Positions 52,958 through 62,984 of a DNA stretch of 64,000 nt are shown piece by piece. Position 1 is the stretch's first letter. Each line of letters opens with the position of its first letter. The notes beneath the pieces were generated by a model. The model was not told the origin of the DNA. It made no database searches and saw nothing but the letters and a program-made list of their open reading frames with translations. Both the position numbers and the translations under genes were made by a program. Source of the DNA: Rhodococcus sp. UNC23MFCrub1.1 (GTDB lineage: Bacteria; Actinomycetota; Actinomycetes; Mycobacteriales; Mycobacteriaceae); assembly GCF_000686025.1 (NCBI RefSeq), contig NZ_JMLQ01000004.1, positions 310,001-374,000 on the forward strand, written 5' to 3'.

Positions 52958-53029
52958 GGGCGTATAGCTCAGCGGTAGAGCTCTGGTTTTACACACCAGC
53001 GGTCGGGGGTTCGAACCCCTCTGCGCCCA
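52958..53029 (+). tRNA. tRNA-Val (anticodon TAC)
   Basis: A 72-nt cloverleaf: acceptor GGGCGTA/TGCGCCC, D-arm AGCTCAGCGGTAGAGCT, anticodon loop TTTACAC, T-arm GGGGGTTCGAACCCC, discriminator A. CCA is not encoded. The tRNA 3' end faces the remains of a tyrosine integrase, so it marks the left edge of the island and is the likely attachment site. Confidence 0.95.
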
Positions 53030-53039
53030 CGCTGGTCAA

Positions 53040-53591
53040 AGGGGTTATGGCCCCGATCTGGCCTCACAGACACCGGATTCTCATCACGTTTTGTCACAAG
53101 CGCTCCGTAACTCGCCGCCGCCACCACCAATGCGTACGGCTGGTTGTGCCAGTACCGAGCCATCGTGAATGCTGCCGTCGCGTGTCATTACCAGGTAGAA
53201 ACCGTCGGAATGGATACGCCATCGAGGATCATCAGCGTGGCGCACGTATGCCGTTCGTCGAGCAGGTTGATGACTGGCACGCCAGCTCGTCCGCACGCGG
53301 CCTTCCATCGATCCCTCAGTTAGTCGGGTTACACAGGCACTCCCAGCTCGTTAACGAACAAGTATCCGCTGTCATGGAATTTGTCACCGGCCCGTGACAT
53401 CTTCTGGCGCTGCACAGCACGAGCGTGAATGAGCGACGTGTATACCGGGTCGGGGATCGGGAGATCTTGCTTCGATCGATCCGTCTTCGGCTCACCCGTT
53501 TCGACCTCGCCGTCGACGATGGTGCGCGCGTCCGAACGATGCGGATGGTGTGAGCTTCCATGTCGATGTGCTCCCATCCGAGGCCGGAGGT
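53040..53591 (-). pseudogene. Decayed tyrosine-type integrase
   Basis: The catalytic half of a phage-type tyrosine recombinase can be pieced together on the minus strand. GLGWEHIDMEAHTIRIVRT is followed by an extra CG dinucleotide near 53525 that shifts the frame, then VDGEVETGEPKTDRSKQDLP to NELGVPV, an in-frame stop at 53329-53331, then DERHTCATLMILDGVSIP, two stops in place of the LG of the LGH motif (53185-53190), and finally AFTMARYWHNQ with the active-site Tyr. The His before RHT is Leu. The N-terminal half is missing. Its C-terminus faces tRNA-Val, as in integrated elements. Confidence 0.85.
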
Positions 53592-53890
53592 TCAGCATTC
53601 CACTCAAGCGGTCCCTCGAGCGTCTCGACCCAGATACTCGCCCAACCCTCAACTGGTCCGGAGTCTTCTGTAGTACTCGCAAACAAGGCGACTGCCTCGA
53701 TGAGCGAACGTGCTCTGTCATCTGGTGCCTGGTTCATCGCCACGCCCAGGTCATCGAACAGCTCCGCGATAACAGCGCCGGTCGTGACGAAGGAGTGCAG
53801 TGCTCGTGCGGCTGGGGAGTCCCACTGTGCTGCGATCGCTCGTGCAGTCCCTGCGTCAACCGTCGTCTCATTGTAGTTGGCTCGCTCCAC
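53492..53890 (-). CDS. Hypothetical protein (possible)
   Basis: A 132-codon frame starting GTG (MERANYNETTVDAGTARAIA). The first 105 residues look like a normal globular helical protein (AIAELFDDLGVAMNQAPDDRA, LIEAVALFASTTEDSG); the last 27 run out of frame through the integrase remnant and become Arg-rich, so the original 3' end is probably lost. No ribosome-binding site is clear. It may be a truncated gene fused by deletion to the integrase remains. Confidence 0.35.
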   Translation of the reverse strand: MERANYNETTVDAGTARAIAAQWDSPAARALHSFVTTGAVIAELFDDLGVAMNQAPDDRARSLIEAVALFASTTEDSGPVEGWASIWVETLEGPLEWNAEPPASDGSTSTWKLTPSASFGRAHHRRRRGRNG

Positions 53891-53913
53891 CTGGAAGGAG
53901 ATGCTGTCGTTGT

Positions 53914-53928
53914 CTGACCAGCGGTCAG
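53914..53928. promoter_or_regulatory. Short palindrome, candidate operator
   Basis: A perfect 6-3-6 inverted repeat (CTGACC...GGTCAG) sits in the space between the minus-strand hypothetical gene and the plus-strand gene at 54026. Its size suits a dimeric repressor such as TetR or GntR types. No regulator for it is identified. Confidence 0.35.
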
Positions 53929-54025
53929 GTGGTTATGTTGTCATTCACTCATATCACTTCATTTCATTAGCTTTGCGCACTGCCAGAGAAACCTACGATG
54001 GTCAAAACGAGAACGGGAGGTTTTG

Positions 54026-54985
54026 TTGTTTCACAGTCACACTCAGCCGTGGGGGACAGGCAACGCACAAGCCTGGATCGACGAAAAGTACGGACCGGGC
54101 TATGAACCGGTGCCTTACGGGACCACTTTCGCGAGCTTTGACTACGGCGAGTTCGCGATCATGCACCGAATAGTTGCGCGTCGGCTCGACCCGTATACGG
54201 GGAAGTACACGTTGAAGTCCCTGCCGCTGCATGATGCTGTGCTGCCGGAAGACCTCCTCTTCCCAATCCCCCTGCGGGAAGAAGCAAGTAACCTTGACGC
54301 CTTCAGCTATCACTGGCAGCAGTTGACTTACGCGTTCAAGCTCCCAAGCCCCGCAGGCTTCCCGAAGCTGGCGTTGTCTGATGAAGAGCGTGAACTCTTA
54401 GAGCAGTACGTCACTTACTGCCGTCGTCTCGCAAAGTACTCTGTTTTCAATGACAAGCTGGGCTCACTTTCCATGACAACCCAAAACGAAGAGACGTCTG
54501 TATCCGCCGTCTTGCCTAGTGAAGAAGCGTTCACGGCAGCCTCTGCGACTTTCAGGCTGATCAACAACGAAAGTGACGAGGCTTCGTTTGACAAAGCGTT
54601 CAAGATCCTGAACAAAAAACTGCAGAATGAGACCAGCTCACGTGCGAAGCGGGGTCAGGTTGTACTTGACGGTTGGAAAATAGCCCGTAAAGAGATAAGC
54701 AAGCAGATGTTGGAAACTTATATATCTAGGAAGTTGGTGGCTCACAAAGAAGTCGACGAACGTCGACCCTTAACGTTCGCGAACGTAAACCCGAGCAATC
54801 TGATCCTGGATTTCAACTACGGGGACACACTTCACTGGGGCAAGAGAAGAGATGCGCTTGCCGAGCTGACGGCGGACGGTCAGATGGAACAGTTCTACAA
54901 GCACTGTGTCCTCAGCTCGATGCTGAGTCTGGGTCACTTGTACTTCGGTTTCACGGTTGCGGTGGAGTCCGCTCTAGGCGTCTAA
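54026..54985 (+). CDS. Island protein of unknown function
   Basis: A 319-residue protein without a family I recognise. The N-terminal part is rich in aromatic residues (GPGYEPVPYGTTFASFDYGEF), the middle is helical and charged, and the C-terminus ends in a hydrophobic run (LSLGHLYFGFTVAVESALGV). Third positions are mixed and GC is well below the core genes, consistent with transfer. A GGGAGG site precedes a pair of TTG codons at 54023 and 54026; I use 54026 for spacing. It is cargo of the island and could be a defence or toxin component, but nothing proves this. Confidence 0.6.
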   Translation: MFHSHTQPWGTGNAQAWIDEKYGPGYEPVPYGTTFASFDYGEFAIMHRIVARRLDPYTGKYTLKSLPLHDAVLPEDLLFPIPLREEASNLDAFSYHWQQLTYAFKLPSPAGFPKLALSDEERELLEQYVTYCRRLAKYSVFNDKLGSLSMTTQNEETSVSAVLPSEEAFTAASATFRLINNESDEASFDKAFKILNKKLQNETSSRAKRGQVVLDGWKIARKEISKQMLETYISRKLVAHKEVDERRPLTFANVNPSNLILDFNYGDTLHWGKRRDALAELTADGQMEQFYKHCVLSSMLSLGHLYFGFTVAVESALGV

Positions 54986-55193
54986 AGGTAACCAGCGGAT
55001 TCACCCCGGCACGACGGGAGGTCGGATGCCGGGGTGGACACGCTGAACTAGTACCAGCGCACGTGTGTATGAACCAGAACGCGCCGGCCGCAGCGAGGGC
55101 GATGGTCACGCCACAGATGAAGAGGTAGAACATCATGTCAGCGAGGAAGTCGACGATGATCAGTCGCTTCTTTCGCCGGGGTACGGACATCAT
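54951..55193 (-). CDS. Small membrane protein (80 aa)
   Basis: Basic N-terminus (MMSVPRRKKRLIIVDF) then one strong hydrophobic helix (about 20-42, FYLFICGVTIALAAAGAFWF) and a polar, Pro/Arg-rich tail. Topology would be N-in. It overlaps the end of the plus-strand gene by 35 bp. Function unknown; small membrane proteins are common island cargo. Confidence 0.5.
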   Translation of the reverse strand: MMSVPRRKKRLIIVDFLADMMFYLFICGVTIALAAAGAFWFIHTCAGTSSACPPRHPTSRRAGVNPLVTFRRLERTPPQP

Positions 55194-55343
55194 GATTCGA
55201 CCTCGAATGTCTCAATAAGCTCGACGTCGTAACCAGCGGGCTTGCAGCGCTAAATTGGCTACTCGGGTGACCACCATTCCTAGTGCTGCTAGACGAGCCT
55301 AATTCGTGTGAACCATCTTTCCTATGCCAGGTGCAGTCGTTTT

Positions 55344-55360
55344 CTCGGTACCATACCGAG
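55344..55360. promoter_or_regulatory. Short palindrome, candidate operator
   Basis: A perfect 7-3-7 inverted repeat (CTCGGTA...TACCGAG) lies in the roughly 250-bp space between the divergent small genes at 55193 (-) and 55446 (+). It may bind the product of the HTH-like gene at 55446. Confidence 0.35.
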
Positions 55361-55445
55361 TCTTTGACAGCCACGGACTGATTTCATAGTTCAAACGCCA
55401 ATACTTTTGATCTTCCATAATTTCTCCTTTATAGTGTTACTAACT

Positions 55446-55718
55446 ATGCCACGTCGTCACTATCACCTTGATGAAGTCCTGGCCTACGCTGAGGCCGGCA
55501 AGACTGCGTGTGAGATCGTGGAGTTTCTCGGGTTGCCTGTGGGGAGCGAGCGCCGCAGAAGGCGATCAACAGATCTCGGCCCTCTGCCTAAACGCCCACC
55601 GGCCCGTGCAGACAAGATCCGTGGCCGCGTCATTGCGTGGATGGTCGCCAACGGGCTAAACGACAAGGTCTGCAGTGTGTTGCCTGAAGATGTCGCTCTT
55701 CCCGATGCACATCCGTGA
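55446..55718 (+). CDS. Small HTH-like protein
   Basis: A 90-residue basic protein: MPRRHYHLDEVLAYAEAGKT then ACEIVEFLGLPVGSERRRRR, which reads as a helix-turn-helix (AYAEAGKTACEIVEFLGLP) followed by a basic stretch. The ATG at 55446 is preferred over upstream codons that cover the promoter. It might bind the palindrome about 90 bp upstream. Low-GC composition fits the island. Confidence 0.5.
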   Translation: MPRRHYHLDEVLAYAEAGKTACEIVEFLGLPVGSERRRRRSTDLGPLPKRPPARADKIRGRVIAWMVANGLNDKVCSVLPEDVALPDAHP

Positions 55719-55804
55719 ACTGAAGCAGGACGACGACTTAGGATCGTTGATCTTCGTCTGTCGCTCTTGCAAGCGGCCTGGTGATGTCTAGGTACGATGC
55801 CCGC

Positions 55805-56026
55805 ATGCTAGGTCAAGCGATCATGTGGTTCGTGGCTCCGATTCTGGGGTTCCTCTACATCTGGAACGTCGTCGGACTCGTGATCATGCGTAGGGATCGC
55901 TCGTGGCCGGTCAAGCTTGCGAAGCGCAACTGGCGTGGTCCGCTGATCCTGGTTGTGACACTAGGGGTCGCCGCGGCATCAGTCTCACGAGGCATCCAGC
56001 TTTTCATCGCATTCTCATCCAGCTGA
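55805..56026 (+). CDS. Small two-helix membrane protein
   Basis: A 73-residue protein with two hydrophobic helices (MWFVAPILGFLYIWNVVGLVI and GPLILVVTLGVAAASV) separated by a basic loop. An in-frame ATG at 55781 adds 8 residues. No family recognised. Confidence 0.45.
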   Translation: MLGQAIMWFVAPILGFLYIWNVVGLVIMRRDRSWPVKLAKRNWRGPLILVVTLGVAAASVSRGIQLFIAFSSS

Positions 56027-56067
56027 TTCCGTCTCAGGACTCGATTGCGCCCTTCTTCGATGGTCGT

Positions 56068-56271
56068 TTATTTAACCGGCCACCGACCGCTCCTGCGACA
56101 AGCGCTCGCTGTCGTTCCAGTCATACCGTCCGGCCCTACCTTCGTAAATGCGAACTTGCCTGTCTTCCCAGCTCGACCTCCAAGAGCGCCGATGCGTTTA
56201 TAGAAGTCTGGGCCGTGCTTGGCTTTGTTTTTCTCAGCGGCCTTAGCTCCGCCGGCGGCAGTGCCGCTCAC
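56068..56271 (-). CDS. KGG-repeat-like small phage/plasmid protein
   Basis: A 67-residue basic protein whose first 45 residues (AAEKNKAKHGPDFYKRIGAL then GGRAGKTGKFAF) match the general stress protein/con-10-like KGG motif found in many phages and integrative elements. The last 20 residues look unlike the family and a frameshift near the end is possible. The start overlaps the stop of the upstream gene by 4 bp (56268-56271). Confidence 0.55.
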   Translation of the reverse strand: MSGTAAGGAKAAEKNKAKHGPDFYKRIGALGGRAGKTGKFAFTKVGPDGMTGTTASACRRSGRWPVK

Positions 56272-56489
56272 GACTTGAACCTCCGAGTTACACGGTCAAC
56301 AAACGTTGGGTTGTCCGTGCGCTGGCGAGCCTTAGCTGCTGCGCGTTCCTCAGCCTTCTGTTGCTCCGACACGCACTCCTTAAGCTCGGCGTTCTCCCGT
56401 CGCACGTCAGCGGTCTCGCGGTGCAGGAACTCAAGTGCTTCGTTGTACCTCGCGATGTACTTGTCGAACCTCTGCTTCTGCCCGGCCAC
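56268..56489 (-). CDS. Small coiled-coil protein
   Basis: A 73-residue protein that is almost entirely alpha-helical coiled coil (FLHRETADVRRENAELKECV with heptad spacing) with a basic C-terminus. Middle gene of a three-gene minus-strand unit with the HTH gene upstream (17 bp gap) and the KGG gene downstream (4 bp overlap). Confidence 0.55.
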   Translation of the reverse strand: MAGQKQRFDKYIARYNEALEFLHRETADVRRENAELKECVSEQQKAEERAAAKARQRTDNPTFVDRVTRRFKS

Positions 56490-56506
56490 GATACTAATGA
56501 CGCCAT

Positions 56507-56806
56507 CTAGCGGGTTGGGCGTTTGGTCTGTCCTACGCCCTGCTGCTTCCGTACATCCTTCGTCACAGTGACGTTGTGACTCGTAGGTCGCTGCGCTGGG
56601 TGCATTGCTCGTTCTGCCGACTCCTGCCGCTTCTGATACAGCCGTCTGCTCTCAAACCTGTCCCAGCTACCGGCCCGTCGGATGTTGCCGACAGTTGATA
56701 CAGACACGCCCACGCGCTCTGCAATTGACTCGACGCTTCCGTTCCGCTTTTCGAGGTGTCTCTGCACCTCGTCGAACCGCTGTCTAATTATTGGTCTCCT
56801 CGCCAT
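56507..56806 (-). CDS. HTH DNA-binding protein
   Basis: A 99-residue basic protein starting MARRPIIRQRFDEVQRHLEK. The segment SVESIAERVGVSVSTVGNIR is a clear helix-turn-helix of the Sigma70-region-4/resolvase-like kind. The C-terminal half is polar and basic. It heads a three-gene unit and is a plausible regulator of the island. ATG 56806 is used; the frame is open to 56854. Confidence 0.6.
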   Translation of the reverse strand: MARRPIIRQRFDEVQRHLEKRNGSVESIAERVGVSVSTVGNIRRAGSWDRFESRRLYQKRQESAERAMHPAQRPTSHNVTVTKDVRKQQGVGQTKRPTR

Positions 56807-56967
56807 AAGTCTTTCTGGTGCTGAGCACCGCTTTTGTTTACTACCCGCACGCATCTTCTTCTTCCATGACGATGAGCGTTTCTGCCCCCATCTTCTGATC
56901 CTTCACCTCGGATGAGTCACTGGGAACGAACATCAGGCTGTCTCCACTGGGGGAGCGATACCTTCGT

Positions 56968-57195
56968 CTACCCACTCAGGGGGAGGTTGTAGGTCCGGAC
57001 TTTGATGTCCTCGACCGCCTCTACGACTGCGGTGGTCTCTTCGTCCGTGCAGTTCTTGAGGAGCGGCTTAGCTGTTGCAAAATTCAACCCCGTGACGTGA
57101 GCGACCAGGCCGCGGCGACCCTGATCAGTGATCGGTAGGGGGTATGGGGGAATTTGAATCAGCCGCTTCAGATGCGACTGCTGTGTTTGTGTTAG
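56968..57195 (-). pseudogene. Open reading frame without start codon, gene remnant
   Basis: A 75-codon frame on the minus strand (QSHLKRLIQIPPYPLPITDQ early, then GLNFATAKPLLKNC and VEAVEDIKVRTYNLPLSG before a TAG) has protein-like composition but no ATG, GTG or well-placed TTG at its 5' end, where a TAA closes it. It is either a remnant whose 5' end was lost or a gene with a non-standard start. No family recognised. Confidence 0.35.
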
Positions 57196-57529
57196 TTAAT
57201 AGCTAACCTAGACACCCTTAGTTTAACAAATTTGATAACTTATGCAAACACCCTGCAAAGAATCAATAGGTGGTTTGATCAAAACCGCACCGCGCACTAC
57301 TAGCCCCTCCCCATTGTGGACGCAAAATGAAGTGAACATGCGCAAGAGTACATGTATGTGACGTTGCGTCCAGGCGCTGATACATCGCCCCCTGTTACGT
57401 CAACCTGGCTAATGCGACGCATATACAGATCGGGAGACTTTCACCTAGTACTCGGAGATGGAACGGTCATAGAAAGTGTTTGTATTGGATTCGTATTCAC
57501 GTGTTCCGTATAGCTGCGGAAGGGGGGCG
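57196..57529. other. AT-rich non-coding region with inverted repeats
   Basis: No gene is visible in these 330 bp. The stretch is the most AT-rich of the window. It includes a short palindrome at 57191-57207 (GTTAG...CTAAC) and a pair of inverted 9-mers (TGGACGCAA at 57317-57325 and TTGCGTCCA at 57364-57372). Such AT-rich segments with paired repeats often act as promoters, replication or transfer origins of elements; nothing specific can be assigned. Confidence 0.4.
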
Positions 57530-58477
57530 CTATGTCTCGCTACCACCTTCTCTCGTTGCTATACCTTCGTCCTTCTTCTCATCGGTTCCTTGGTTTCTGA
57601 TTGTTGGGTAAATCTTCTGGGCTGTATCTAGAGCTTCTTGCACGGACTGAGTCATTATCCCGGCAGCGCGCAAGAACGATATGCCTGCAACTGTGAATAG
57701 GATGGAGAGTACAGGTGCAGCGACACCGAGATTCGATGCAAAAACGATGACCGTCACAAGTCCCCCGAAGAAGAGAACTGATAGCGTGGCGTAAAAGATG
57801 CGCCTTAGTAGGGTAACCTTCGCTTCTACTGAAATATATTCGGCCTCCGGGAGGGTCACCCAAGCTCCTGCGTTGAATTTAACAACTGCGATAGCGATTT
57901 GATTGTGAAGCTCCCGTTTTTCTGCCGGCGTGTGCATTGACATGATCTCGACTTGCAGATTGAGCAAACCTTGCACACGTGTTGCGATCGCGCTGTTGAG
58001 TGCGGGATGCTCAACATCAGCCATGTTGGGTATTGATTCAACAGCCTTAGCAACTCTACGAATTTCGCGGTTTATGTCTCTTCGAAGCTTGACGTTTTCA
58101 GCTGAGAAGTCGGTAGCATCAAGTTTATTGAACATTGCGTGAACGGCTCTGCTACTCAAATGGCCGTTATCTTCGTCTTGACGTCGTCGAACTTTGGTCT
58201 GAACGCCGGTGGCGACGCCAGCGATAGTTCCGATAACGACGCTCACGCTTAGTGCTACTAACGGGGGACCGAACGCATCTGCTTCTATCAGGCTCAGCAC
58301 TAGAAGGGACGAAACTAGCACGACTACTAAGCCTGTCAGCATGCCTGCGATCCGCAGGATCAGCTCGAAGCGTTCCCTCTGCCGTCTTCCCTGTAGTACC
58401 TGTTCGATCACCGCACGCATTTGCGGGTCAGCGTCTTGGTACGACTCAAGCGGTTCTTCACTCACCCGAGCATTCAA
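57530..58477 (-). CDS. Membrane protein of unknown function
   Basis: A 315-residue protein with two pairs of transmembrane helices: LTGLVVVLVSSLLVLSLI and LVALSVSVVIGTIAGVATG at about 46-95, then FYATLSVLFFGGLVTVIVFA and a last hydrophobic segment at about 228-275. The 120-residue cytosolic loop between the pairs is helical and charged. Start is TTG 58477 or GTG 58465. It follows the coiled-coil membrane gene by 44 bp and is probably cotranscribed with it. No family recognised. Confidence 0.6.
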   Translation of the reverse strand: MNARVSEEPLESYQDADPQMRAVIEQVLQGRRQRERFELILRIAGMLTGLVVVLVSSLLVLSLIEADAFGPPLVALSVSVVIGTIAGVATGVQTKVRRRQDEDNGHLSSRAVHAMFNKLDATDFSAENVKLRRDINREIRRVAKAVESIPNMADVEHPALNSAIATRVQGLLNLQVEIMSMHTPAEKRELHNQIAIAVVKFNAGAWVTLPEAEYISVEAKVTLLRRIFYATLSVLFFGGLVTVIVFASNLGVAAPVLSILFTVAGISFLRAAGIMTQSVQEALDTAQKIYPTIRNQGTDEKKDEGIATREGGSET

Positions 58478-58521
58478 CCAGGTGTTCGATCCTCAGAGGC
58501 CGCCTGCACTAGTCCAATCAT

Positions 58522-59256
58522 TCAAACGGATGACTCAAAGTTGTCCTCGTCCAACTGCTTGCGAATGTATCGCAGGTAGACAGGGTTGAGCGCTGCGTTC
58601 AAGTAGGTGGTGATGATCCTGACCGACTCGCCAACCTCCTCGTAGCTGTTGTCATAGGAATCCCAGTTCACTAGCTGAGCGAGCCCCACACCAACTATCT
58701 CACCGCGCAGTTTGCGCGCCCGCTTCAGTCCAGTCTCGACATTTCCCAGGAGGGTCTCGTCGAAGATGCCCAAGCGTGCGAGTTCGATCGAGTGCTCCGT
58801 GGATGAGAAGACGTCCGAGTAGTCCGTAACACCATCGAGGTAGGTGTCGTTGGCTATGTCGCTCTCTGACTCTAGTCTGAACGACCAGGTGAAGTTGTCA
58901 GTGAGTCGCCATATCTGGCGCAGTGACGCGGCGATCTCTTTGCCAGCCTCGATCTGCTCGCGTCTCATGACTGCCACACGTTGGGCTTGCAACTGCTCCT
59001 TGTGTCGCTTGCGCTCTTCATCCAAGCGCTCCTCCGCCTTGCGTGCATCCTCGACCGCACGTTGGTTGGTCCTCTGAGCCTGCCACAACGCGATAGTCAC
59101 AGCGGCTAACGTTCCTGCACCTGACACCCAGGCCGCTAGTGGACCGAATTGACCCGAGCCCCAGTGATGAATGAGACCTAGCACGCCGAACACAACGACA
59201 CCGGTTGCGCTTGCGGTACCGATCGTCCAAGCGATCGTCTTCTTCCACATGGGCAT
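58522..59256 (-). CDS. Two-TM coiled-coil membrane protein
   Basis: A 244-residue protein: two N-terminal membrane helices (AWTIGTASATGVVVFGVLGL and WVSGAGTLAAVTIALWQA), then a long charged coiled coil (about 65-105, with RKAEERLDEERKRHKEQLQA) and a globular C-terminal domain. This layout is common in hypothetical proteins of mycobacterial and rhodococcal islands. ATG 59256 is chosen; ATG 59250 and 59280 are alternatives. First gene of a two-gene unit with the gene at 57530. Confidence 0.6.
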   Translation of the reverse strand: MPMWKKTIAWTIGTASATGVVVFGVLGLIHHWGSGQFGPLAAWVSGAGTLAAVTIALWQAQRTNQRAVEDARKAEERLDEERKRHKEQLQAQRVAVMRREQIEAGKEIAASLRQIWRLTDNFTWSFRLESESDIANDTYLDGVTDYSDVFSSTEHSIELARLGIFDETLLGNVETGLKRARKLRGEIVGVGLAQLVNWDSYDNSYEEVGESVRIITTYLNAALNPVYLRYIRKQLDEDNFESSV

Positions 59257-59352
59257 GAGCTTAGTGGACCCCACCGACATCGATTGAAGAACTGTGAATA
59301 ACCAGTGTCGTCAACAAAAAATAGTATTGACTTTCTAACCCAAATGGCTCAT

Positions 59353-59669
59353 TGAACCGTCCTGGGTCTGGTGGAGACTTTGATCTCACCAGGAGAATGC
59401 CGGTATGGCTGCACCGAAGAAGTTCGACGAGGAGACCCGCCACCGCGCGGTGAGGATGTATCAGGAGCGGATTGCCGAGCGCGGTGACACGAAGCTCGCC
59501 GCCCGGAAGCATGTGGGTGGATTGTTGGATGTGAATCCGGCGACGCTGCGGAACTGGGTCGAGAAAACCGGCGCCGCTGACGAATCCGACGGAGGATCAG
59601 GGGGCGCCGATCGTGATGCGGAGTTTAGAGCTCTCCGTCGCGAGAATGCCGAATTACGCAGAGCCACTT
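59353..59669 (+). mobile_element. IS3-family insertion sequence remnant (left end and truncated orfA)
   Basis: The left end TGAACCGTCCTGGGTCTGG resembles IS3-family termini of actinobacteria. It is followed by the orfA start at 59405 (MAAPKKFDEETRHRAVRMYQ, with the VNPATLRNWVEK helix-turn-helix). Similarity stops after RRENAELRRA at about 59667, before the NEILKTASAFF end of OrfA, and there is no orfB or right end. Inactive remnant. Confidence 0.8.
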
Positions 59670-59793
59670 ACTACGGACTAGATATTGCTCTTCAACTGGA
59701 AGCCGTAGCAGCACCCCAGTGTCACTCAATACGCCGCAACAAGAGTGCAGTTTCGGTAGGCTTTGGCAAAACTCGGACGGAGGTACTGCAAAC

Positions 59794-60331
59794 GTGGGTG
59801 ACATGCAGGGTGACTACAATGCGATGGCAAAGGCTGATCAGATAATCAGATCGCGTCATGAGAGGCCCAGCGTAAGTCCAGGACTGTACTAGACGACTTT
59901 GTTCAGTTTCTATCCTCAAACGGTGTTCCGGGTCGCCCTTCTGCAGCGAGACATCGGAATTATTCCCTGAGAAGACGTTCGCTGGTTTCACTACTAGAAA
60001 ACGCGAGCGTATTGGCACGCTCACCTTCGTTGGATACGGGTATGTAGTCGACGAGAGCGACATGACTACAAGTAATTATTTCTATGTCCAAGGGTCGGGG
60101 ATTATCAACGGATTTATTTCGGATCTAGCTCGGTTGAAAACGAGTACTAGTAGTAGTTCCGTAGTCACCGTGGGTGGCTCGAGTCCCATTTCAAGGGACG
60201 ACACTTTCGCTTACGTCTCTCGGTGGAGAGGTCCATCAGACACCAGCCTTTTTGGCTGGGACTCCGAACCAAGAAGACGCTCGCTTCTGATCCGAGCTCG
60301 TCAATACATTGAATTGAAGCGCGCTTACTGA
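59794..60331 (+). pseudogene. Frameshifted unknown gene
   Basis: A GTG at 59794 with a GGAGG site 10 bp upstream opens a frame (VGDMQGDYNAMAKADQIIRS) that stops at a TAG near 59891. Protein-like sequence continues in a second frame (VLDDFVQFLSSNGV) and then a third (GSPFCSETSELFPEKTFAGF through TFVGYGYVVDES, YVSRWRGPSD and RARQYIELKRAY) to a TGA at 60331. Net length needs a frame change, so the gene is probably broken. No family recognised. Confidence 0.45.
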
Positions 60332-60450
60332 ACACCGGTTGGCTGACCAAAACAGTGTAGAAGACAGAGCTTCTCTTGAGTTCTGAAGTTGGCACCTCAC
60401 GGGAAAACGCCGACCATGGTCGTGTCGGTGCGGGGTGAGAAGATCGCCCC

Positions 60451-61638
60451 ATGATCAAGCAGACGCGAGCGTCCCGGTGGTTGCAGGTTCTTGAAACTGG
60501 CCGGGTGCTGATAAGTCAGTCGGCGAACTCTGCTGAGATGTACCGCGCCAACGGTAGGCCGCTGCCGTTGCAAGCGCAGAACATGATGATCGGCGTGAGT
60601 ACCGACCCCATCAAGATGATGATCGAGTCCAACCCTCCGATAGAGGGAACAGCCTTGGCTGGGCAGCTGAACGGAGTGATCCAGCAGGCGAAGTCACTCA
60701 CAGCTGGAGCCGGGTTCCACACTGGCTTGACGAGGTTGGTCGAAGCCGTTGACGAAGTGCTGCCGGTTCTACGCTCGACCACAGACGACGAGATTGACTC
60801 AGCTACAACCCTGGTGGGGGAGCTCGAACGTGGCTTCATGTTGTCCCTCATTCTTTCCATGTCCGCGCACAACGCGATACTGCAACGTGTCTCGGACTGG
60901 GAAGAGGAACACACCAGGTTCGTCCAGGGTCGGTCTCGTAAGGACGTCGGGCACTACTTCTCGATGCACGCGACCAACGCCGAGGAGATCCGGAACCAGT
61001 CTGAGCACGCGTTCCCTGTAGAAAGCTCGTTCTACTCTGACACCCCCGGACCCGGGAAGATCCACATGCAGCACATGGTCCATGCGATCAACTCGGGCGC
61101 TAACGTCATGGTCTTCGGCGGCGGTGGCATGGGAAGCACTGAGTACTACCCCGAAGCTATGGGCATCGAGTACGCCCAGTGGTTCACCTACATACACGCT
61201 CTCTGGGACGAGCAGTTCAGGCCGCGCTTCGCGGCTTTGTACAACCGTGGCAAGGACCCCGAGGACAAGCTGCAGAAGAACGACATCAAGTCAGAGTTCT
61301 TCAACGACATACGCAAGATCCGAACGGACTTCGTTCATCATCAGGGGATCGTCGAGGATGCGGCCAACCTGGAGTTCTTCGATTGGAATTTCGAGGCCGG
61401 CTCTCGTCTAGAGGTCAGCATGGAACAGATGATCGAGGTCATGGACAAGTTCCCACGTGATCAGCTCCTAGAGGAGCCGAAGCCGCACAAGCAGAAGCGC
61501 CGGTCGTTGCGTGGCTCCTTCGACGTCAACCTGCTCGACAAGTACTTGGAGCACATCGAGGGGTCACCGACGCTAGGGATCAACCAGGCGAACGATGAGA
61601 TGATGCGAGACTGGCTGGTCAAGAAGGGTCTGCTGTAG
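60451..61638 (+). CDS. HEPN-like protein, candidate defence component
   Basis: A 395-residue, mostly alpha-helical cytosolic protein. Near the C-terminus the segment FFNDIRKIRTDFVHHQGIV (Arg291-x4-His296) has the R-x4-6-H layout of the HEPN superfamily, whose members cut RNA as toxins or defence effectors; a second R-x4-H is at Arg181-His186 (IRNQSEH). Gly-rich VFGGGGMGS lies between. ATG start at 60451. The Mrr-like gene follows 39 bp later in the same direction, which suggests a two-gene unit. HEPN assignment is by motif and helical context only. Confidence 0.6.
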   Translation: MIKQTRASRWLQVLETGRVLISQSANSAEMYRANGRPLPLQAQNMMIGVSTDPIKMMIESNPPIEGTALAGQLNGVIQQAKSLTAGAGFHTGLTRLVEAVDEVLPVLRSTTDDEIDSATTLVGELERGFMLSLILSMSAHNAILQRVSDWEEEHTRFVQGRSRKDVGHYFSMHATNAEEIRNQSEHAFPVESSFYSDTPGPGKIHMQHMVHAINSGANVMVFGGGGMGSTEYYPEAMGIEYAQWFTYIHALWDEQFRPRFAALYNRGKDPEDKLQKNDIKSEFFNDIRKIRTDFVHHQGIVEDAANLEFFDWNFEAGSRLEVSMEQMIEVMDKFPRDQLLEEPKPHKQKRRSLRGSFDVNLLDKYLEHIEGSPTLGINQANDEMMRDWLVKKGLL

Positions 61639-61677
61639 ATGACGACGTGCGCCTCTTAGTGCAGTTGGGAGCAACCA

Positions 61678-62193
61678 GTGGGAGCTAAGCCGAAGACAAT
61701 CCAGTCCTACCGCGAGGCTGAGTTGAACGCGGTACGTCAGCTTGTCGAGCTAGGTCGAGCTGATGTCAAAGCGACTCCGATCGGCGCTGACTACGGGATC
61801 GATTTCGTCGGCGACAACCTGATCGGTCAGGTGAAGTGGCATGTTGCGAAGATCAGCCGACCAGCTCTACAGCGGCTGTTCGGTTCGCGAGGCGCGCACA
61901 CACACCTCATGTTGTTCTTCAGCAAGTCGGAGTACACGCTTCAGGCCGTGGCCTATGCGGACAGCGTTGGCATGTGCCTATTCCTGTACGACAAGGTCGG
62001 GACGCTCAGGCCAGCAAATCCACTCGCTGCAGAGTTCTTCACCGGACTGAAGAAAGCTAAGAGGGATGAGCGCCGTGCAGCCGACGAACGCAGGGCGGCA
62101 AAGCTGGAGAAGCACCGGCAGAAAATGTTAGCGCAGCATCGTGCGGAGGATGAGCATCAGTTGAAGAGTCAGTCAGGTGAGCTTGACACCTAG
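61678..62193 (+). CDS. Mrr-type restriction endonuclease-like protein
   Basis: A 171-residue protein with the PD-(D/E)xK nuclease core of the Mrr/type IV restriction group: an N-terminal helix with Glu (YREAELNAVRQL), the Asp42 motif GADYGIDFV, and QVKW (Gln51, Lys53) followed by the ISRPALQRLFGS helix that Mrr proteins use after the catalytic strand. The C-terminal 50 residues form a charged helix. No separate DNA-recognition domain is present, so specificity may come from the upstream protein. GTG start. Confidence 0.72.
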   Translation: MGAKPKTIQSYREAELNAVRQLVELGRADVKATPIGADYGIDFVGDNLIGQVKWHVAKISRPALQRLFGSRGAHTHLMLFFSKSEYTLQAVAYADSVGMCLFLYDKVGTLRPANPLAAEFFTGLKKAKRDERRAADERRAAKLEKHRQKMLAQHRAEDEHQLKSQSGELDT

Positions 62194-62219
62194 TCGGCTA
62201 TTGATTAAATGAAGGCATT

Positions 62220-62244
62220 AGTTGTGTCTAGATTAGAGACAACT
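62220..62244. terminator. Hairpin downstream of the Mrr-like gene
   Basis: A 10-bp stem with one mismatch and a 5-base loop lies 26 bp past the stop codon and at the right edge of the AT-rich island. It may terminate the two-gene unit. Confidence 0.5.
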
Positions 62245-62439
62245 ATGACAACGATTTAAGAATAGACTTTCAATGTGCCGCAGGCTGAGCGGTGAGCGGG
62301 GGGTTCATGGTCGCCGCGGGGCGCTGCGGTCGGGTCGCAGCGCGATGACGTAGTGCGAACGACCGATAGGCGGCACAGGTCATCGCTGCCACGATGGGCT
62401 TCAGGCGGAGGTACCGCTCCATCGCGTGGAGGAAATATA

Positions 62440-62984
62440 TTGAGCAGCAGAAACTTTCGACGTCGACAGGTAGCCACTGTTGCGGTGGTCGCGGCCGGGT
62501 TGGCCTTCGTCGCACCGGCAGTCGCCAGTGCGCAACCGTCCACATTCCGTAGCAGCACGGGCAGCAGCCTGATCGACGATCCGATCGGAACCTCGAGCGA
62601 GGGGCACGCATCCTCGGCGAGGCCATCGGCGGATTCGGTGGAAGAGACCTCGGTAGTAGCGGCCCCGGCACACCGACGCAGAACTGCAACGAGCAGACAG
62701 TGTCGGGCGGCGAGGGCGTGACCGATACCAATCACCAGCTCGGCCGAACGGGTCCGACGTCCTTCGTGCTCGACTACGAGACGGAGAACGTACCGGACAA
62801 CATCGAGGTGTTCTACCAGGGCGGCAAGGTGTACGAATCCGGGTACATCGGCGACGACCTGAACGAGGGAACCGGGTCCGCAGTCGTCTCGCCTCCGCCG
62901 GGTGCCGCCACGACGGTGCTGGTGCGGGTCACCGGGCCGAGCGGTACCTCCTGGGCGTACACCGTCCGCCGCCCGGCGCAACAA
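62440..62984 (+). pseudogene. Secreted protein gene with a frameshift
   Basis: A TTG at 62440 with a GGAGGA site starts a typical export signal (RRRQVATVAVVAAGLAFVAP ending AVASAQ). After LIDDPI (about 62584) the native sequence continues in another frame (NLERGARILGEAIGGFGG, then CNEQTVSGGEGVTDTNHQLG, FVLDYETENVPDNIEVFYQG and a beta-rich end, GTSWAYTVRRPAQ). Loss of one C in a CCGG-like context would explain the shift. The usual stop after PAQ is also absent, so the second frame runs on to 63203 over the neighbouring gene. Confidence 0.65.

Follow-up and report, generated by a model that had tools for sequence, protein, structure and literature searches.

Adjacent HEPN-like and Mrr-type genes behind a tRNA-Val gene of Rhodococcus: a probable case of independent passengers at a variable site

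The analysis was performed on a stretch of 64,000 nucleotides (the window) from Rhodococcus sp. UNC23MFCrub1.1, located at positions 310,001 to 374,000 of contig NZ_JMLQ01000004.1. Near its right end lie two neighbouring genes, here termed A and B, for which an original prediction, made from the letters alone, had suggested a role as a two-gene defence system, with either the large protein sensing and the small one cutting or the two proteins cutting RNA and DNA, respectively. This raises the question of whether the two genes belong together or merely share a site. The comparisons described below moderately favour a reading that makes A and B unlinked passengers of a variable insertion site at tRNA-Val and A itself a stand-alone protein, probably a HEPN-type ribonuclease. 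The tempting but unsupported two-gene system is thereby struck from the list, and attention shifts to A. This protein is blank in the annotation libraries used (Pfam, NCBIfam and PADLOC), yet it combines an invariant RNase-like motif with a DNA-binding-type tail and a mobile distribution. The features of the locus are listed in Table 1.

Table 1. Features of the locus and of protein A (positions refer to the window)
Feature	Position	Strand	Description
tRNA-Val (TAC)	52958..53030	+	ARAGORN, Rfam; left edge of island
Inserted island with A and B	53031..62272		Comparison with same-species genome and G002
Integrase relic	53200..53526	-	Homology extends beyond end of the relic's open frame
Gene A	60451..61638	+	ORF, 395 aa; helical N-domain, HEPN-like domain and RHH-like tail
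A residues 1-111	60451..60783	+	Predicted four-helix bundle, poorly conserved; model helices 6-33, 40-60, 68-82, 89-109
A residues 253-257	61207..61221	+	[DE]x3R motif, within long helix 234-264; 23/23 rows
A residues 291-296	61321..61338	+	R-T-D-F-V-H, Rx4H motif; end of helix 282-296
A residues ~345-391	61483..61623	+	Ribbon-helix-helix-like tail; profile match to RHH_1 tails (hhalign)
Gene B	61678..62193	+	ORF, 171 aa; Mrr-type PD-(D/E)xK; without recognised recognition domain or membrane helix

The insertion behind tRNA-Val

A and B are separated by a gap of 39 bp and are both encoded on the + strand of an island, in agreement with the original prediction. The GC content is 0.50-0.59 across 53-62 kb, versus ~0.68 outside; the low-GC stretch is opened by the tRNA-Val gene and closed by A and B. 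In a genome of the same species (G484), the flanks that match the window at 53030 and 62970 are only ~330 bp apart, compared with 9.9 kb in the window. In G002, the match to the left flank stops at 53030 and the match to the right flank restarts at 62273. The low-GC stretch with A and B is an insertion behind tRNA-Val. Next to the tRNA gene lies an integrase relic with 48.6% identity over 109 aa to an integrase fragment (a PHROG integrase) at the same position in Rhodococcoides fascians (L020); the window ORF at 53329-53721 alone had no PHROG match at E 0.01. No att repeat was found: apart from short matches attributable to chance, the 3' end of the tRNA gene does not recur in the window. In 22 genomes of the genus (own genome included), a single contig spans both flanks; the length of the slot in these varies from 0.12 to 48 kb, with part of the larger distances representing ordinary chromosome because other species hold further genes there.

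Several other features of the site were recorded. Two adjoining island proteins (57530-58477 and 58522-59280, - strand) appear by eye to consist of membrane and coil segments and have SLATT-like matches below cut-off, and the second of them (58522-59280) matches LeoBC of PADLOC at E 1.8e-4. Small membrane proteins (by eye) are also encoded near A in L020 and L085, and blastp revealed no convincing similarity between these and the two proteins of the window. A 320-aa island protein (54023-54985, + strand) had no convincing match in NCBIfam or PHROGs. The start of a gene for a secreted protein (62440-62721, + strand) seems to end early; in G002, the corresponding ORF (L048 1212-1835) is longer, at 207 aa. 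The right-flank region that codes for an alcohol-dehydrogenase-like protein (named by eye) recurs with 91% identity at G000:C10:1388-2375. Behind the tRNA-Val gene of an empty-site genome, an ORF for a small Cys-rich protein of 100 aa was noted (L094 860-1162), and blastn gave no match to this stretch in the window.

Protein A: motifs, fold and tail

The motif on which the HEPN assignment of A had been based is present as predicted (R291-TDFV-H296). Its conservation was determined in an alignment of 23 proteins (A of the window and 22 homologues, some of them partial and two rows 99% identical), from which L028 (split frame) as well as L071, L078/L084, L079 and L080 (fragments or distant sequences) were left out. 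Eight columns are invariant (Q243, W252, R257, A261, R291, D293, H296 and W312), with R291, D293 and H296 retained in 23/23 rows at identities to A of the window down to 17%. The residue after R291 is polar (N in 13, H in 4, Q in 4 and T in 2 rows, the window having T), and position 253 is E in 16 and D in 7 of the 23 rows, followed in all of them by R257. In five relatives or fragments outside the alignment (L028, L071, L078, L079 and L080), R and H are kept in 5/5 cases; L071 reads RNLVVH, with L at the place of D293, and D293 is therefore not universal. A contains three R-x4-H strings, and composition shuffles contain 0.85 on average. An R-x4-H string alone is thus within chance, and it is the conservation that makes the R291/H296 motif meaningful.

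HEPN RNases are metal-independent and act as dimers. In HEPN domains, the Rx4-6H motif has a polar residue, usually N, D or H, in the position following R, and many HEPN families have a second acidic block of the form Ex3[KR] (PMC3710099). Both are found in the 23-row alignment, namely the Rx4-6H motif with its polar next residue and an acidic block of the Ex3[KR] type. In the AlphaFold model of A (mean pLDDT 78.9), which is mostly helical, the [DE]x3R block and the Rx4H block follow one another, as expected, on consecutive long helices; a model of residues 112-346 reached a pLDDT of 78.4. The mean majority fraction is 0.31 for residues 1-111 versus 0.59 and 0.65 at the two motif blocks.

Searches with profiles and structures gave little in addition. 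A itself had no matches in Pfam and NCBIfam at E 1 and one match in PADLOC at E 0.036. No HEPN Pfam profile scored above cut-off in any of 13 members of the family, the sole HEPN-type Pfam match being RiboL-PSP-HEPN in L025 (E 0.12, below cut-off). PADLOC models matched single members only, at E 0.027 or worse, with the E 0.027 match belonging to a CARF-HEPN model. Comparison of the A family by hhalign with an alignment of seven RiboL-PSP-HEPN sequences (nine loci from a PF18735 search were examined for ORFs and seven used) yielded a probability of at most 0.45%, and a PF18737 profile search for HEPN sequences found these in 1/246 genomes. No solved HEPN structure was among the Foldseek or VIA-align results for the whole-A model or for the model of residues 112-346, an outcome still compatible with such a fold. 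Because membership was unconfirmed in the profile and fold searches, A is called HEPN-like, and its membership of the HEPN superfamily is considered probable. Of the predicted HEPN type, the two conserved motif blocks stand, while confirmation by profile or fold search was not obtained. This outcome would fit a different reading, in which A lies outside the HEPN superfamily and its conserved R, D and H belong to some other helical enzyme or to a regulator that binds RNA or DNA and has an RHH domain. It appears unlikely, given two separate HEPN motif blocks in proper sequence on consecutive long helices and the weak Pfam HEPN alignment in L025, which covers residues 234-268 and spans RNDVVH at 258.

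The C-terminal tail of A is newly recognised here as ribbon-helix-helix-like, that is, of a DNA-binding type. In three genomes, the profile of A additionally matches proteins of the cyclic-nucleotide-binding type at their C-termini. Comparison of 22 A-family tails with these three tails by hhalign gave 97.3%, whereas 100 column shuffles never exceeded 8.9%. In the model of A, the tail forms two helices (359-371 and 377-391); its strand-helix-helix match was reached by profile-profile comparison only, and 0/5 A-family tails matched RHH when searched directly in Pfam. The three proteins concerned (L081, L082 and L083, from genomes G614, G778 and G210) each join a cyclic-nucleotide-binding-type domain to a C-terminal RHH tail that is a relative of the A tail, and Pfam confirmed both domains in L081 and L083, the two of the three that were tested, with RHH_1 above cut-off.

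Distribution, neighbours and possible role of A

Homologues of A were detected in 3/60 other related genomes, in 5 plasmid records (two from one strain) and on 13 genome contigs (12 of Mycobacteriales genera and one of an acidimicrobial MAG), the contigs overlapping in part with the preceding counts; Rhodococcus, Williamsia, Nocardia and mycobacteria are represented. In a profile search, the HEPN-like part of A was found in 5/37 genomes of the genus and 8/397 genomes of the order, own genome included, after tail-only matches had been removed (G014 and G029 in the genus; G210, G614 and G778 in the order) from raw tallies of 7/37 and 11/397. The carriers counted include G809, whose copy contains stops, and G735, whose copy is in two pieces. 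A search of the phylum with the single protein detected A in its own genome only, among 396. A had no match in the phage collection or in viral contigs. A PHROG of unknown function (phrog_14548) matches 2/13 members of the family (best E 4e-4), with A of the window reaching only 0.29.

The surroundings of A vary. In 20 loci, the window included, the immediate neighbours, called with a crude custom script, differ by locus and none is recurrent. In Williamsia deligens (L022), A stands alone between genes that were read by eye as metabolic. In L020, the integrase fragment and a gene weakly matching phage families both lie on the 5' side of A, and in L021 A lies 5' of a head-tail adaptor-like gene. 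Defence-like surroundings comprise a DUF499/HEPN_Swt1 protein in L087, a Schlafen AlbA_2 protein in L019, CHAT and DUF3644 in L017 and NACHT in L018.

As to the role of A, the preferred reading takes it for a one-gene, Abi-like RNase, carried on plasmids and islands. The RHH tail would hold an A dimer together and may also bind the promoter of A itself, resulting in autoregulation. The fast-evolving N-domain would sense an infection cue, upon which the HEPN-like part would cut cellular RNA and stop the growth of the infected cell. The mode of action could be abortive infection or element addiction. If active, A would amount to a compact module for defence or addiction, one gene that brings its own regulator. 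A narrower alternative, in which A is an addiction toxin of plasmids or islands, with the RHH tail as its own repressor or antitoxin-like part and no anti-phage role, is unlikely. The plasmid carriage of A and its RHH-like tail agree with it, RHH being a common DNA-binding domain of antitoxins (PMC2701414); the lack of a recurrent neighbour in the 20 loci and the defence-like surroundings of some copies argue against it.

Among described systems, the nearest analogue of A is Tha, a prophage-borne HEPN RNase of Staphylococcus aureus with 301 aa, with which A shares a plan, without an established sequence relation. Tha-1 contains R265NSIMH270, and the H270A exchange abolishes protection; Tha is triggered by minor tail proteins and inhibited by Ith, the product of the overlapping ith gene (PMC11087260). 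Like A, Tha-1 and Tha-2 are single effectors with an N-terminal part devoid of a recognisable domain and a C-terminal R-x4-H HEPN domain (HEPN-like in A), and they are carried on mobile elements (PMC11087260). The HEPN domain of Tha (184-296) ends the 301-residue protein, whereas A runs on into its RHH-like tail. The HEPN effectors of abortive infection surveyed in PMC3710099 (AbiJ, ApeA, Abi2 and RiboL-PSP-HEPN) share with A an Rx4H motif with a polar next residue, an acidic-x3-basic block and a helical domain behind a variable N-domain; A differs from them in that no HEPN Pfam model matched it above cut-off. A layout with HEPN and RHH in one protein, as proposed for A, is also known from the PaREP1 HEPN-RHH fusions of Pyrobaculum (PMC2701414). 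PaREP1 is, however, archaeal, and the Parep1/8 family lacks the R of Rx4H (PMC3710099), whereas A keeps both R and H in every aligned row.

Full-text searches on HEPN in mostly open-access literature brought up no paper recognised as a description of the actinobacterial A family. A more ambitious proposal, which is put forward tentatively, is that A founds an undescribed, Mycobacteriales-centred family of one-gene immune RNases with a sensor bundle, a HEPN domain and an RHH dimerisation and autorepressor domain in one chain. If this were true, a single gene would unite parts that are usually split between a toxin and a DNA-binding antitoxin and would move freely between plasmids and islands.

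Gene B and its association with A

B matches the Mrr_cat profile (PF04471) at residues 18-97 with an E-value of 7.7e-6 (26.5 bits versus a cut-off of 21), and this is its only Pfam match. Across an alignment of 13 sequences, one of them B itself, D42 and K53 never vary and Q51 hardly does. Its predicted affiliation with the PD-(D/E)xK nucleases of the Mrr group (Asp42, Gln51 and Lys53) is therefore upheld, as is the claim that it has no recognition domain of its own. Mrr proteins have a two-domain layout, and the separate DNA-recognition domain that characterises type IV Mrr enzymes, which cleave modified DNA, is missing from B (171 aa, Mrr_cat only). The same D/Q/K motif and profile match are found in small Mrr_cat restriction endonucleases from plasmids of Rhodococcus and other actinobacteria. 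In 9/13 of the aligned sequences, a hydrophobic stretch typical of a membrane helix follows the nuclease domain, whereas B is devoid of it (hydropathy). Homologues of B occur in 36 plasmid records, 29 of the 30 listed carrying the label restriction endonuclease, and in 14/61 related genomes, own genome included; no match was obtained in the phage collection or in viral contigs. By its sequence, B is an ordinary Mrr_cat-type nuclease of a common restriction type, and it would act as a separate endonuclease that cuts DNA on its own.

A neighbourhood conserved between A and B, on which the original prediction had staked its refutation, was not recovered in the loci sampled. Beside A, a B-like ORF was found in 0/26 other loci by means of a B-family HMM, which matched B of the window only; this count enters L014 and L018 separately despite 99% identity between their A proteins, considers closed ORFs of at least 50 aa only and includes five loci cut near A by contig ends (L021, L023, L031, L032 and L088). 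Conversely, A was found beside B homologues in 0/15 loci (tblastn at E 0.1 or A-family HMM), with flanks of 1.5 kb in seven and 4 kb in eight of them and with L007, L008 and L036 being near copies. The closest relative of A (68% identity) occupies the same tRNA-Val slot, and no B lies beside it. G003, G012 and G017 have B-like sequence in the slot, interrupted by stops in G012 and G017, and their genomes contain no match to A. Among the 22 genus genomes with both flanks, 2 have A in the slot and 4 have B-like sequence there, the two occurring together only in the genome of the window, an occupancy that needs no linkage.

The two-gene system is therefore not supported, and the division of labour originally envisaged, with the large protein sensing and the small one cutting, fails on the 0/26 and 0/15 loci sampled. 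That A and B nevertheless form a new or recently assembled defence operon at this site, in which A senses or cuts RNA and B cuts DNA, is highly improbable in view of these counts, of a slot co-occurrence confined to one genome and of a ribosome-binding-like GGGAG (by eye) that B has of its own, even though the genes share a strand with a 39 bp gap, no terminator-like site was found on the + strand between 59800 and 62600, proteins of both kinds are found repeatedly in defence modules, and the same N-terminal domains are fused to some HEPN and to some Mrr domains (PMC3710099). The best explanation for their being neighbours in the window is that one hotspot received two passengers. The other version of the original proposal, with A cutting RNA and B cutting DNA, is plausible if each acts independently.

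As to another PD-(D/E)xK partner of A, no recurrent one was seen among the loci looked at: a NERD gene lies ~1.5 kb from A in L029, a TnsA-like gene is present in L028, and a 308-aa gene 148 bp 3' of A in L023 resembles by eye a D..ECR nuclease, with no Pfam match at E 0.1. Three further observations were made at related loci. Near A in R. fascians (L020 4661-5341), a 226-aa gene without a Pfam match at E 0.1 has an R-N-x3-H string of its own. The surroundings of L086 include an hsdM-like gene (by eye). The 48-kb tRNA-Val slot of G003 contains three B-like stretches (G003:C33:45372-50079), one of them with a stop, and also encodes a phage portal protein.
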